From positions 1 to 64,000 of the forward strand of contig JAGABZ010000006.1 of assembly GCA_017614375.1 (NCBI GenBank): 64,000 nucleotides of DNA, given 5' to 3'. A program made the translations under genes and the position numbers. The notes under the pieces are model-generated. The model did no database searches, was not told the origin of the DNA, and saw only the letters and a list, made by a program, of their open reading frames with translations. Each line of letters opens with the position of its first letter. The first letter of the stretch is position 1. Shown piece after piece: positions 50,269 to 57,875 of this stretch. The DNA is from Spirochaetales bacterium. GTDB lineage: Bacteria > Spirochaetota > Spirochaetia > Sphaerochaetales > Sphaerochaetaceae.

Positions 50269-50390
50269 GGGCAGAGTGGATTTGCCTTCGCCTCCCGGAG
50301 GTCCGGCTCAGGCCGCCTCCGCTTCGGGCGCTCATCGAATCGCGTCCGAGTACGCTCCGGTTCAAATCCCCGTTCTCGCCTATAAACGCC
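50269..50390 (-). repeat. tRNA-Pro-linked palindromic element (copy P)
   Basis: The plus-strand outer stem GGATTTG (50278-50284)/CAAATCC (50363-50369) copies the tRNA-Pro T-arm. Middle stem CCGGAG (50295-50300)/CTCCGG (50355-50360); inner stem GGGCGC (50326-50331)/GCGTCC (50342-50347). The distal end carries a second copy of the tRNA 3' end, GGGCAGAGTGGATTTG. Homologous to the elements beside tRNA-Val. Confidence 0.7.
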
Positions 50391-50391
50391 A

Positions 50392-50417
50392 AGAGGACCA
50401 GCTGATGCTGATCCTCT
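50392..50417 (-). terminator. Displaced tRNA-Pro terminator-like hairpin
   Basis: Minus strand AGAGGATCAGC-ATCA-GCTGGTCCTCT, an 11-bp stem (one G-U pair) followed by TTGGCGTTTAT. Confidence 0.6.
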
Positions 50418-50423
50418 CGTCGT

Positions 50424-50466
50424 TTCGGGCAGAGTGGATTTGAACCACCGACCCCTTGGTCCCGAA
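50424..50466 (-). repeat. att repeat: displaced 3' half of tRNA-Pro
   Basis: 43 bp identical to 53666-53708, covering the tRNA from the anticodon loop to the 3' end. It marks the distal boundary of the integrated element and lacks the 5' half of the tRNA, so it is not a functional tRNA. Confidence 0.9.
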
Positions 50467-50568
50467 GGCACACCGTCCGTCAAGCCACTTGTTATGTCAA
50501 AGGCAGTATGTTACATGACAAAAGGATAGTCAAGCGAGATGTTAAGAGAAAGGAGGGAAAGAAAGCCT

Positions 50569-50611
50569 ACACACTGTGTTTTTTATACACAGTTTTGACA
50601 CACAGTGTGTC
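50569..50611. promoter_or_regulatory. ACACAGTGTGT inverted repeats
   Basis: ACACACTGTGT (50569-50579) and ACACAGTGTGT (50600-50610) are an 11-bp inverted repeat with a second, nested ACACAGT between them. The 15-bp palindrome GACACACAGTGTGTC lies at 50597-50611. Possible operator or terminator within the element, next to the 3' end of the coiled-coil gene. Confidence 0.4.
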
Positions 50612-50620
50612 GAGAAAAAA

Positions 50621-51178
50621 TCACCACGTCCAGCGGAAGCCTGCGGATACGGTCCACTTGCCGTCAAGATTGAGCCCCGCCCCGGCTATGACCTGCCACT
50701 GGCCTTTGCCCAGGCCCATCTGCAACTCGATGCCCGGAGTGAACCGGGCTTCGATAGGGTGGGTGATCAGGCTCGCAACAGAGAAGTGCAGTTGCTCTCC
50801 TTTTTCGTCTTTGAGGGCTTCGTACTTTGCCTTCCAGTCGGTCATCAGCGACAGCGTCTGCTGTAGGTCGGCGATCTGGGCCTGTAGCGCGAGGTTTGCC
50901 TCTTGGACGATGTCAAGGTCGTCCCGGGCCTGTGCGACGAAAATCTCGGCCTCCTGCGCTGTCTGACGGGCTTCTGCGGTTTCCGCCGTAAGCGAGGCGA
51001 GCCGGTGGTCCTTCTCGGTGACTACACCCTCGAGCTCGGATACCTGCGCCTCCAGCTCACTGATGCGCCCCTCGATTTCTACGGCGTACTCTCCGCCCTT
51101 TGCCCATATGACAAGGCTCTCCGGGTAGGAGACGAAGAAAAACTTTACCGCGGCGATCAGGGCGCAGATCACAAGCAT
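50621..51178 (-). CDS. Membrane-anchored coiled-coil protein of the integrated element
   Basis: 185 residues: an N-terminal membrane helix (MLVICALIAAVKFFFVSY), a long coiled coil (about 38-115, ISELEAQVSELEGVVTEKD), and a C-terminal beta-rich segment ending LNLDGKWTVSAGFRWTW. Layout recalls spanin-like or tail-associated phage proteins but no family is recognised. It diverges from the MuF-like gene. Upstream in-frame hydrophobic codons mean the true start could be slightly earlier. Confidence 0.6.
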   Translation of the reverse strand: MLVICALIAAVKFFFVSYPESLVIWAKGGEYAVEIEGRISELEAQVSELEGVVTEKDHRLASLTAETAEARQTAQEAEIFVAQARDDLDIVQEANLALQAQIADLQQTLSLMTDWKAKYEALKDEKGEQLHFSVASLITHPIEARFTPGIELQMGLGKGQWQVIAGAGLNLDGKWTVSAGFRWTW

Positions 51179-51207
51179 GAGGGTGATGACTACTATATGG
51201 GAGTGAC

Positions 51208-51786
51208 ATGCTCTATCAGAACGACATCACCCCCGAAGATAACGCCGTAGCAGAGGCCAAGACATTCTCCTCGTGGGAGGACTGGCACGGCTACGCCACA
51301 TTCATGCTTGAACTGGACGAGAACGAAACCGCCAGGGCATGGGACGAGGCTCACGCCGTACCCAAGGAAAATATTGATTTGGATACAATCGGGCTTGCTG
51401 TAATGTCAATATCCGATCCGCTGGCTGTATTTGACTCTGTGGATTCTAAAGGCGATATCCGTAAAAACCAGCTTGTAGTTGTTACTGAAGTTGAAAACGA
51501 CAAAGGAGAAAAGGTTGTTGTTCCTCTTCATATGCAGGAAACGGCAGACAGAATTGAAGTTGATATCATAGCAAGTGCATACTTCAAGGGGTCTTCTGGG
51601 GTATATGATAAGTGGGCTTCGCTTGGAGCATTAAAGTATCTTAAAAACAATGAGGTCGGTTCTCAGCTTATGCCGCTCCAATTGCGGGGAAGGGAGAACC
51701 AACCTCTACTTCAGAAAGTACTTCAAAGAACTGATGTTGTCAACAAGTATTCATGGATGCCCATACCGCCATCTGTGGAATTGTAA
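51208..51786 (+). CDS. MuF C-terminal-like phage protein fragment
   Basis: 192 residues. The segment from DPLAVFDSVDSKGDIRKNQLVVVTEVEND through VVVPLHMQ to IASAYFKGSSGVYDKW and ALKYLKNNE follows the pattern of the phage MuF C-terminal domain, a region often found at the end of large phage capsid-associated or toxin-like proteins. Here it stands alone after a 55-residue lead, so it may be a cargo effector or a remnant of a larger phage gene. Start behind GGGAGTGAC. The second half is AT-richer than the first. Confidence 0.55.
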   Translation: MLYQNDITPEDNAVAEAKTFSSWEDWHGYATFMLELDENETARAWDEAHAVPKENIDLDTIGLAVMSISDPLAVFDSVDSKGDIRKNQLVVVTEVENDKGEKVVVPLHMQETADRIEVDIIASAYFKGSSGVYDKWASLGALKYLKNNEVGSQLMPLQLRGRENQPLLQKVLQRTDVVNKYSWMPIPPSVEL

Positions 51787-51796
51787 GGAGAAGTAA

Positions 51797-52009
51797 ATGA
51801 CAAAAACTTTCTGTAACATTTGTGGAAAAGAAATCAAGCCATCACATGAGGGAGAACCGCACAAACTCACATTCAAATTCAAGGACTTGGACGAGCATTT
51901 CTGCTCTCTTGATTGCCTTCGAGTTGGTCTTGGAAAATGGTTTGACCCGAGAAGTCCGCAGAAGGTAACGATTGATTATGAGTGGAGTCGGGTTGAGTCT
52001 AATAAATGA
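51797..52009 (+). CDS. Small zinc-finger protein
   Basis: 70 residues with CNICGKEI near the start and HFCSLDCL later, a likely four-cysteine zinc site. It starts ten bases after the MuF-like stop, preceded by AAGGAGAAG, so it is in the same operon. AT-rich. Unknown function. Confidence 0.65.
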   Translation: MTKTFCNICGKEIKPSHEGEPHKLTFKFKDLDEHFCSLDCLRVGLGKWFDPRSPQKVTIDYEWSRVESNK

Positions 52010-52019
52010 GAATAAAAAT

Positions 52020-52340
52020 ATGGAAGAAGTAACTGGCAAACAAAGACTTGAAAGGCTTTACGAGAGACTGAAGAAGAACTATCCAAATGAGGATATCCGC
52101 TTTGAGGATGAGACGCTGATTATCGGCAAGTACAAGCTTGTAAAATTCAAGGTGGCGTACTATATCAACGGTAGGCAGATGTGTGATGCCGTGTGGGGTG
52201 ATGGCTCGTATGGCTTTAAGGAAAATTTGCTTGAGTTTTATAATTGGGATGAACCCATCGGCAATATAACAGAACACAAAGCGTACAAATTTTTCGAGGC
52301 GTGCATTGAGACGGAAAGGAGAGTGGAAGCAAACAAATGA
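52020..52340 (+). CDS. Hypothetical protein of the integrated element
   Basis: 106 residues from MEEVTGKQRLERLYERLKKN. Alternating charged helix and beta strands (DETLIIGKYKLVKFKVAYYINGR) are followed by a helical C-terminus. No family recognised. It follows the zinc-finger gene by ten bases; the ribosome-binding site is weak, so translation may depend on coupling. Confidence 0.6.
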   Translation: MEEVTGKQRLERLYERLKKNYPNEDIRFEDETLIIGKYKLVKFKVAYYINGRQMCDAVWGDGSYGFKENLLEFYNWDEPIGNITEHKAYKFFEACIETERRVEANK

Positions 52341-52516
52341 CAAGGCGGGAGATCATGGCAAAGTACGGCATCGAGCGCTATGCGGTACCCAACCTCGACC
52401 AGGAATTGACCGAGGCCGAGGCTCAGGAGTTTGAGCACTTCTGTATGCTGATCAGATGGCATCTGGCTAAACTAAAGTCATCGCCGGAAGCGCCCGCAGA
52501 GCATCCTCGTAGGTGA
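52337..52516 (+). CDS. Small protein overlapping the integrase 3' end
   Basis: 59 codons, MTRREIMAKYGIERYAVPNL at the start and a helical middle, ending PAEHPRR. It begins in the stop codon of the previous gene (ATGA) and its last 50 bp are antisense to the integrase gene. The coupling argues for a real gene, whereas the antisense overlap and GC-rich composition argue some caution. Confidence 0.45.
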   Translation: MTRREIMAKYGIERYAVPNLDQELTEAEAQEFEHFCMLIRWHLAKLKSSPEAPAEHPRR

Positions 52517-53567
52517 TGTGAGTATAGCGCTCCGTCATCTCCTGCGTAGCGTGCCCGGTAATCTCCTGTGTAAGGACGTCAGGTAGCCCCGCAAGACGTA
52601 ACCGACTATTGAGATAGTGCCGCCAGGAATGAAACGTAATCCGGCGGCTCTTTCTTTCTGCCGGCCCTATGCCTATCTTGTCCATGGCCGCATAGAGGCT
52701 CCCGAGGATGTAGCTGCGGGTAATCGGAGTTTCCTTGTAGGGCGAGCAGAAGATAAACTCCTCCGGCTCTCGCGGAAGCTCCATGAGCAGGTCGTACAAG
52801 CCGTCGGATATGGGGATCTCCCGGACCACACCTGTCTTTGTTTCCTTGAGGATGTGGAGGTCTTCGCACCATGAGCAGGCGCAGGTAATCTTGCCGGGCT
52901 GGATGTCACAGGGGCGCAGGGCCTGTATCTCTCCCATGCGCATCGCGGTCGAGGCCGACAGGATGTTGGCAAGGTAGGCCTCCGGGCTCTTCCAGTTGTA
53001 GATGTCCGAAAACAGCCGTTGCACCTCTTCCGGTGTCATTATCCCCCGAGGTGTGCTCTTCTTGATGTGGTACCGCTTTACCTTCTTGCAGGGGTTTTCC
53101 GGTATCAGGTCCCGCCGCCACCAGTAGTCGAACATCACATTGAGGGCAGAGAGGTAGGTATTGGCCGACTTCGGGGAGAGGTGCTGTTTCTCTACAAGCC
53201 AATACTTCCAATCATCGACCATGTAGGGCTTGATGTCCGTGATGTCCAGCGCCGCAAAGCAATCACAGTATCGGTCGAGCATAGAGCGGTTGTGCCCGAT
53301 AGTGCACGCCGAGATGACGCGTCCGTTCCGGTAGGCTTCCTTGCAATAAGGGCACTCTTGTGTCCACCAAAACTTCGTCGCCTCAATCCACGAAGTACGT
53401 CTCTCCGGTGGTTTCTGCAACTCCAAAAATTTTCTCTTTGCCCAGGCCCTCGCGGCCTTTTCGTCGGTCTGTTTTGTTGAGATTCTGTACGGCGGAGTCT
53501 TCGGACCCGTGTAAAAAGCCGCCTGCCAAACGTTGCCGCGCTTGTATAAGTTCATTTGTTGATGCAA
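52467..53567 (-). CDS. Tyrosine-family site-specific integrase
   Basis: 366 residues from a TTG six bases after AAGGGGG; an ATG four codons later is the alternative. N-terminal arm-binding region, then a core-binding domain with an unusual CPYC...CTIGH possible zinc site. The catalytic domain has Arg in TAMRMGEIQALRP, HxxR in FHSWRHYLNSRL, His in ITGHATQEM and the nucleophile Tyr in ERYTHI. It lies next to the intact tRNA-Pro whose 3' half is duplicated 3.2 kb away, so it should be the recombinase of this element. Confidence 0.93.
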   Translation of the reverse strand: MHQQMNLYKRGNVWQAAFYTGPKTPPYRISTKQTDEKAARAWAKRKFLELQKPPERRTSWIEATKFWWTQECPYCKEAYRNGRVISACTIGHNRSMLDRYCDCFAALDITDIKPYMVDDWKYWLVEKQHLSPKSANTYLSALNVMFDYWWRRDLIPENPCKKVKRYHIKKSTPRGIMTPEEVQRLFSDIYNWKSPEAYLANILSASTAMRMGEIQALRPCDIQPGKITCACSWCEDLHILKETKTGVVREIPISDGLYDLLMELPREPEEFIFCSPYKETPITRSYILGSLYAAMDKIGIGPAERKSRRITFHSWRHYLNSRLRLAGLPDVLTQEITGHATQEMTERYTHITYEDALRALPAMTLV

Positions 53568-53665
53568 CTTACGCCCCCTTTTCAACACAAAAATCATACA
53601 CACCTGTGCATGACAAAGGCGGACGGCATAAGCAATAAGTTGTTACACAACAACGCTTTGTGTAT

Positions 53666-53708
53666 TCGGGCAGAGTGGATTTGAACCACCGACCCCTTGG
53701 TCCCGAAC
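53666..53708 (-). repeat. att repeat within intact tRNA-Pro
   Basis: 43 bp identical to 50424-50466. It spans the tRNA-Pro anticodon loop to the 3' end plus one flanking base, the usual crossover segment for tRNA-targeting integrases. Confidence 0.9.
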
Positions 53709-53739
53709 CAAGTGCGCTAGCCCCTGCGCTACTACCCGA
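53667..53739 (-). tRNA. tRNA-Pro(CGG)
   Basis: 73 nt. Acceptor CGGGUAG/CUGCCCG, anticodon stem CUUGG/CCAAG, loop UUCGGGA giving CGG, T-loop UUCAAAU. It is reconstituted at the integrase end of the element. Confidence 0.94.
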
Positions 53740-57505: not shown

Positions 57506-57508
57506 TCA

Positions 57509-57637
57509 GGTTTGCCCTCCGGGCCGGCCCCGCTTCGGACGCTCGACGTCTCGCGTCCTCCTACCGCGGGGCTTCAAACCCAAATTTCGTCGCAATAAAC
57601 ACCAAAGGACCGGAAAGACCCGGTCCTTTGCTGTTTT
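57509..57637 (-). repeat. tRNA-Val-linked palindromic element (copy V1, distal)
   Basis: Plus-strand outer stem GGTTTG (57509-57514)/CAAACC (57575-57580), middle stem CCCCGC (57528-57533)/GCGGGG (57566-57571), inner stem GGACGC (57537-57542)/GCGTCC (57553-57558). The tail shares a second terminator-like hairpin (57604-57629) with V2. Confidence 0.8.
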
Positions 57638-57654
57638 GGGCGCGATTGGGTTTG
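57638..57654 (-). repeat. Duplicated tRNA-Val 3' end
   Basis: GGGCGCGATTGGGTTTG, identical to the acceptor/T-arm 3' part of the intact tRNA-Val, separates the two element copies. Confidence 0.85.
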
Positions 57655-57803
57655 CCCTCCGGCGCTTAAAGGGTGGGGCGCGCCTCCGGGCCGTCCCCGC
57701 TTCGGATGCTCGACGTCTCGCATCCTCCTACCGCGGGGCTTCAAACCCAAATTTCGTCGCAATAAACACCAAAGGACCGGAAAGACCCGGTCCTTTGCTG
57801 TTT
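57648..57803 (-). repeat. tRNA-Val-linked palindromic element (copy V2, proximal)
   Basis: Outer stem GGGTTTG (57648-57654)/CAAACCC (57742-57748), middle stem CCCCGC (57695-57700)/GCGGGG (57733-57738), inner stem GGATGC (57704-57709)/GCATCC (57720-57725). The inner stem differs from V1 by a compensatory C-G to T-A change. About 27 extra bases lie between outer and middle stems compared with V1. Confidence 0.8.
57771..57796 (-). terminator. tRNA-Val terminator-like hairpin
   Basis: Minus strand AAAGGACCGG-GTCTTT-CCGGTCCTTT, ten-bp stem with a short T-tract. An identical hairpin stands at 57604-57629 in the distal copy. Confidence 0.65.
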
Positions 57804-57875
57804 TGGGCGCGATTGGGTTTGAACCAACGACTTCCACCGTGTGAAGGTGACACTCTCCCGCTGAGTTACGCGCCC
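57804..57875 (-). tRNA. tRNA-Val(CAC)
   Basis: 72 nt. Acceptor GGGCGCG/CGCGCCC, D-stem ACUC/GAGU, anticodon stem UCACC/GGUGG with loop UUCACAC giving CAC, T-loop UUCAAAC. Confidence 0.93.

Follow-up and report, generated by a model that had tools for sequence, protein, structure and literature searches.

RtT-like repeats behind spirochaete tRNA genes, with arms that follow the local tRNA and a probable single-stranded DNA fold

Results

The window, the 64,000 nucleotides analysed from a Spirochaetales bacterium (GenBank GCA_017614375.1, contig JAGABZ010000006.1, positions 1 to 64,000), holds three short palindromic elements, two behind tRNA-Val and one behind tRNA-Pro, all on the minus strand. 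Along that strand the first locus consists of tRNA-Val(CAC) (57804..57875; ARAGORN, and Rfam tRNA at 61.9 bits), a terminator hairpin with complementary arms (57764..57803), the element Val1, a copy of the tRNA 3' end, a near-identical second terminator and the element Val2. Val1, placed at 57749-57647 by covariance-model search, has a left arm (57740..57763) whose T-arm part (57740-57749) is an inverted copy of the T-arm 3' strand and whose acceptor part (57750-57763) is an inverted acceptor copy with an internal loop. It continues with hairpin 1 (57694..57739; GCCCCGC - GGTAGGA - GGATGC..GCATCC - GAA - GCGGGG, assigned from fold and covariation), hairpin 2 (57654..57692), which carries a GGA/GGA (GNA/GNA) internal loop, and the right arm (57637..57654), a direct copy of the tRNA-Val 3' end (CAAACCCAATCGCGCCCA). 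The second terminator (57597..57636) was recognised from repeat units that are 98% identical. Behind it lies Val2 (57507..57582; covariance-model match of 84.2 bits), in which hairpin 2 has collapsed. An earlier note on this DNA had described the two tandem elements with these stems and a compensatory change between their inner stems (GGATGC/GCATCC in Val1, GGACGC/GCGTCC in Val2), and both are present; its claim that each element is bounded by a tRNA 3'-end copy holds for Val1 but not for Val2, whose outer end has no acceptor copy.

The Pro-type element (50277..50370, minus; 36.5 bits) is preceded by a terminator hairpin (50384..50426) and has a left arm that inverts the T-arm (GGATTTGAA, 50361..50369) and a right arm that repeats the tRNA-Pro 3' end (CAAATCCACTCTGCCC, 50269..50284). 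It had been placed beside tRNA-Pro; the element is indeed there, but the adjoining tRNA-Pro is only a duplicated 3' half (50424..50466, minus). The intact tRNA-Pro(CGG) gene (53665..53739, minus; ARAGORN, Rfam) is separated from the repeat by a 3.2-kb integrative element (50467..53664), which is bounded by identical 43-nt att repeats and encodes a tyrosine integrase (52467-53603, minus; PF00589, 5.5e-18). The 3' half next to the repeat represents the island's far att repeat, so the Pro-type repeat belongs to the intact gene and was separated from it. The island is not a component of the repeat, and its att repeats are distinct from the Pro-type element. One ORF of the island (51208-51786, plus) has a phage MuF C-terminal domain (PF18819).

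With the help of a homologous element behind tRNA-Ala (L003), the full structure can be drawn as an outer stem around two hairpins, the first with an asymmetric GGTAGGA/GAA loop and the second with a GNA/GNA loop. The outer stem does match the T-arm, as had been noted, but the complementarity of the left arm is longer, running on into the acceptor stem and then the terminator, so that tRNA 3' end, terminator and left arm form a single long imperfect palindrome; at tRNA-Val the first terminator is the continuation of the palindrome made by the tRNA 3' end and the left arm. A unit is therefore the tRNA 3' end from T54, a terminator, the left arm, the two-hairpin core, the right arm and often a second terminator, which in many loci is identical to the first or a diverged relative of it. 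Most left arms contain 3-5 extra nt near tRNA position 64. The left arms of five loci (L046, L056, L072, L082, L084) read CGAGAAGC where the exact inverted T-arm would be CTCGAA, a reading that may be compared with GAGAAGC in RtT repeats.

When 60 relatives were searched at the DNA level, tRNAs dominated the matches, and a covariance model built from three copies was used instead. The model gave four matches in this genome and 56 copies in 16 of the 139 genomes of the family, most of them within one genus, which bears out the idea of an element family at tRNA 3' ends; the named carriers are Sphaerochaetaceae/Spirochaetales gut MAGs. Across 393 genomes of the phylum it reached just one further family, with a two-unit array and an exact inverted arm, and a core-independent scan of tRNAs found more elements with other cores in further spirochaete families. 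By census, elements stand at 7 of the 45 tRNA genes of this genome: Ala-cgc, Arg-gcg, Arg-ccg (truncated), Leu-gag (at a contig end), Met, Val-cac and Pro-cgg (behind the island). An eighth call, at Ser-tga, was false and was caused by a neighbouring tRNA-Ser. A second genome (G161) carries them at about 10 of 41 tRNA genes, and the spirochaete copies together cover about a dozen tRNA types and tmRNA. Tandem arrays occur at tRNA-Val (two units), at Arg-gcg (two, the second truncated) and at tRNA-Met of G161. Repeats of the AAAACCACCA/TGGTGGTTTT type also lie behind two tRNA-Arg genes here (L003:1230-1380, and downstream of tRNA-Arg(ccg) in L194).

The elements lie, with few exceptions, on the strand of the tRNA and past its terminator. 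An ARAGORN tRNA lies 47-58 nt upstream of 46 of the 56 matches (69 nt in one of these), and two elements follow tmRNA 3' ends (L058, L075). The remaining matches are mostly second units, behind the island, or at contig ends; three (L062, L064, L078) have no recognisable tRNA, so the expectation that matches always lie downstream of tRNAs is borne out for most copies rather than all. On average, 13.98 of 16 right-arm bases agree with the element's own tRNA, compared with 7.87 for other tRNAs. Summed over elements, the own-tRNA match reaches 643 for right arms (maximum in 10,000 permutations, 452) and 414 for left arms (maximum, 355), and the proposal that the outer stem adopts the local tRNA sequence stands for both arms.

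In a model-fitted alignment of 54 distinct sequences, on which all pair counts rest, the stems are 91% paired and 27 of the 30 stem pairs show two-sided changes. Such changes number 326, against 107 in shuffled alignments. The covariation score is 0.482, compared with 0.175 for shuffled alignments and 0.06-0.08 when partners are slid by 1-3 columns, in agreement with the suggested selection for a folded structure. The stems are maintained almost purely as Watson-Crick pairs: G-T occupies 4 of 961 cells (0.4%) and A-C 11 of 961, whereas the tRNAs that host the elements have 8.5% G-U in their acceptor and T stems (Fisher 3e-17). The 5'-side triplet of hairpin 2 is GNA in 41 of 47 cases, with N free. 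RNA folds of the elements also beat shuffles (z -1.1 to -4.4).

Similarity among cores does not track tRNA type. The cores at Arg-gcg, Met and Pro of this genome share 87-92% identity (the Pro-type core 88% with the Arg-gcg element and 87% with the Met element), and across two genomes the Cys, Pro-ggg and Leu-gag elements are 90-94% identical while their terminators are unrelated. Since near-identical cores stand at Arg, Met and Pro genes with arms that match the local tRNA, we conclude that the core moves and the arms are rewritten. Sister genomes differ in content: the Asp locus has an element in G153 and the terminator alone in G161, and the Pro-tgg locus of G153 has an internal deletion that left only a remnant of the left arm. 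Units tandemise and get lost. The differences represent turnover in which insertion and loss are not told apart, and they could be losses; neither an intermediate of transposition nor a naive insertion was seen.

Discussion

The earlier note could not match these elements to a known class, but the RtT repeats of Escherichia coli and Salmonella (RF00391) are built in the same way: units repeated in tandem behind a tRNA, with an inverted tRNA arm, a hairpin core and the tRNA 3' end copied in direct orientation. In those bacteria RtT stands at tRNA-Tyr, tRNA-Pro and, as a remnant, tRNA-Lys, and its arms vary with the tRNA as they do in spirochaetes; the remnant between lysT and valT terminates in the tRNA-Lys 3' end. 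The tyrT/tyrV units of E. coli (178-bp repeats) form their outer stem by pairing the left arm with the tRNA 3' copy, again as in spirochaetes. The proK units of Salmonella and E. coli share with the spirochaete loci an intervening terminator and have tRNA-Pro arms, whereas the tyrT/tyrV units lack such a terminator and are reported as transcribed. RtT unit number varies in Salmonella (PMC2658671), and at proK the difference between E. coli strains amounts to exactly one unit. RtT occupies 1-9 places per E. coli genome, and 755 of 5426 genomes in a collection have no near match to the tyrT unit; 18 places in the collection are on plasmids. RtT has been reported at further tRNAs in Pasteurellaceae (PMC4986893).

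The spirochaete elements share four features of RtT, namely a position behind a tRNA, a 3'-end copy at the end, a pairing outer stem and tandem units in variable number. The RF00391 model nevertheless fails on the window copies, and for this reason we call the elements RtT-like rather than RtT members: it gave no match to the window elements or their sister loci even at E<=10 and none above cut-off in 149 genomes of the phylum, where a single sub-threshold match (G295, 29.1 bits) lies behind a tRNA-Ser and has tRNA-Ser arms. A search of the window and sister loci with Rfam at permissive thresholds likewise returned nothing at the elements. Judged by sequence and layout, the window elements are an RtT-like variant in another phylum.

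REP/BIME sequences are likewise short, palindromic, non-coding and variable DNA repeats; unlike the spirochaete elements, they are not known to be tied to tRNA ends or to track a neighbour in their arms.

The near-absence of G-U pairs and the recurring variable GNA triplets favour a DNA fold over an RNA fold, and we infer that the conserved entity is a fold of single-stranded DNA. RtT hairpins also carry GNA or GNNA loops (e.g. GTCA, GCCA) rather than GNRA, and loops of this type are known as extraordinarily stable DNA mini-hairpins (PMC4686876). The small-RNA sequencing suggested in the earlier note presupposes an RNA, whereas these two features point to DNA. Depletion of G-U could also arise, without function, from correction of a palindrome.

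Our leading interpretation, to which we give about an even chance, is that these are RtT-like tRNA-linked DNA repeats with a conserved single-strand DNA fold, whose core spreads by template switching and which are likely selfish or neutral. A growing DNA strand would switch templates, folding back at the palindromic terminator and copying the local tRNA 3' end in inverted form as far as the T-loop. From there it would jump, through T-loop microhomology (TTCRA, common to tRNAs and tmRNA), to a core elsewhere, copy that distant core and return into the local T-loop. Together these steps would rewrite both arms and duplicate the local terminator. The tRNA would survive because its 3' end is copied, so that insertions would be tolerated. 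We favour template switching as the putative means of arm rewriting because the T-loop is common to all target genes and each terminator is copied from its own locus. Most likely the element is selfish or neutral DNA, and it needs to confer no host benefit. However, the 3-5 extra nt that recur at one position in most left arms look selected, and plain copying does not explain them.

The main alternative to template switching, which we consider rather doubtful, is that the elements are sites for a single-strand DNA recombinase (integron integrase-, Xer- or HUH-like) acting on the folded outer stem and T-loop. The internal-loop outer stem and forked double hairpin, the strict Watson-Crick stems, the T-loop junctions and the DNA-type loops would all suit such an enzyme, and folded single-strand recombination has a precedent in integron attC, compared with CTX-phi attP, where structure is likewise conserved over sequence in a partly unpaired stem (PMC4792948). 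Unlike those sites, however, the spirochaete elements have no integrase or cassette gene, a T-loop target and arms that copy the local tRNA; no linked recombinase or integrase gene was seen beside the elements we read, and a fixed arm would hold a lineage to one tRNA, yet cores change tRNA with new arms. Also unlikely in our estimation is a self-retargeting mobile element of spirochaetes and gammaproteobacteria, in which an enzyme would move the folded single-strand core, its own recognition arm would be built by copying the tRNA at the landing site, and RtT RNA would be a by-product. An RNA function comes next after the recombinase and seems distinctly improbable for the spirochaete copies. 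Here the element would be transcribed together with the tRNA and act as a small RNA or in processing, which is the accepted reading of E. coli RtT: transcripts of tyrT and other tRNAs are reported to release its RNA, which is also reported to be overproduced with antibiotics and linked to stress (PMC4986893), and the RNA folds that beat shuffles are compatible with it. Against it stand the terminator between tRNA and element in spirochaetes and at proK, the scarcity of G-U on either strand, and the GNA/GNNA loops. An RNA role may exist, at least in E. coli.

We regard as very improbable that the elements are remnants or decoys of tRNA-targeting integrative elements. Duplicated tRNA 3' ends and the integrase element at tRNA-Pro in the window point that way, but an inverted arm and a covarying core are unexpected of att leftovers, a common core recurs at many tRNA types, and the Pro island has att repeats of its own. 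At an att site of a tRNA island the repeated tRNA 3' ends enclose an integrase gene, but the elements, about 100 nt long, have none. Lineages of tRNA-specific integrases were rejected because cores change tRNA type, and an intron because the elements leave a complete tRNA and duplicate its end; neither a bridge-RNA guide nor tRNA-primed reverse transcription has a supporting gene or boundary. Carriage by phages was rejected as well: the core gave no match there, and the sole RtT match was on a contig of a Salmonella genome that had been classed with phages.

What is new relative to known RtT is the tracking of arms across tRNAs and the DNA-level signature. RtT repeats have been regarded as small RNAs of enterics and their relatives. 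On the present evidence they belong to a wider class that spans phyla and bears a DNA-type structural signature; in it, one and the same core turns up at many tRNA genes and at tmRNA, with both arms rewritten on each visit. This raises the testable question of how a gene-less element of 100 nt copies its neighbour's sequence into its own arms, and the polymorphisms of sister genomes and the unit-number variants of E. coli are material for testing arm rewriting.

Several candidate extensions of the family were set aside. A 19-base pattern, searched in genome and viral collections, also matched a handful of contigs from outside the spirochaetes and one of viral origin, but those matches that were tested are unsupported as elements by the covariance model. 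At two contig ends (L052, L066) the 120-155 nt upstream of the left arm encode a similar transposase-like C-terminus that stops shortly before the arm; it has no Pfam match and is probably a separate IS within the terminator, not part of the element. The gene directly behind the tandem fragments of L061 and L069 was considered as an autonomous element, but its protein, read by eye, is probably a host acyl-ACP thioesterase. In L069, about 115 nt past the point where the first element starts, the truncated second unit finishes with GGTAGGAGG; the start codon of the probable acyl-ACP thioesterase gene follows within a few bases, as if this sequence served as a ribosome-binding site.
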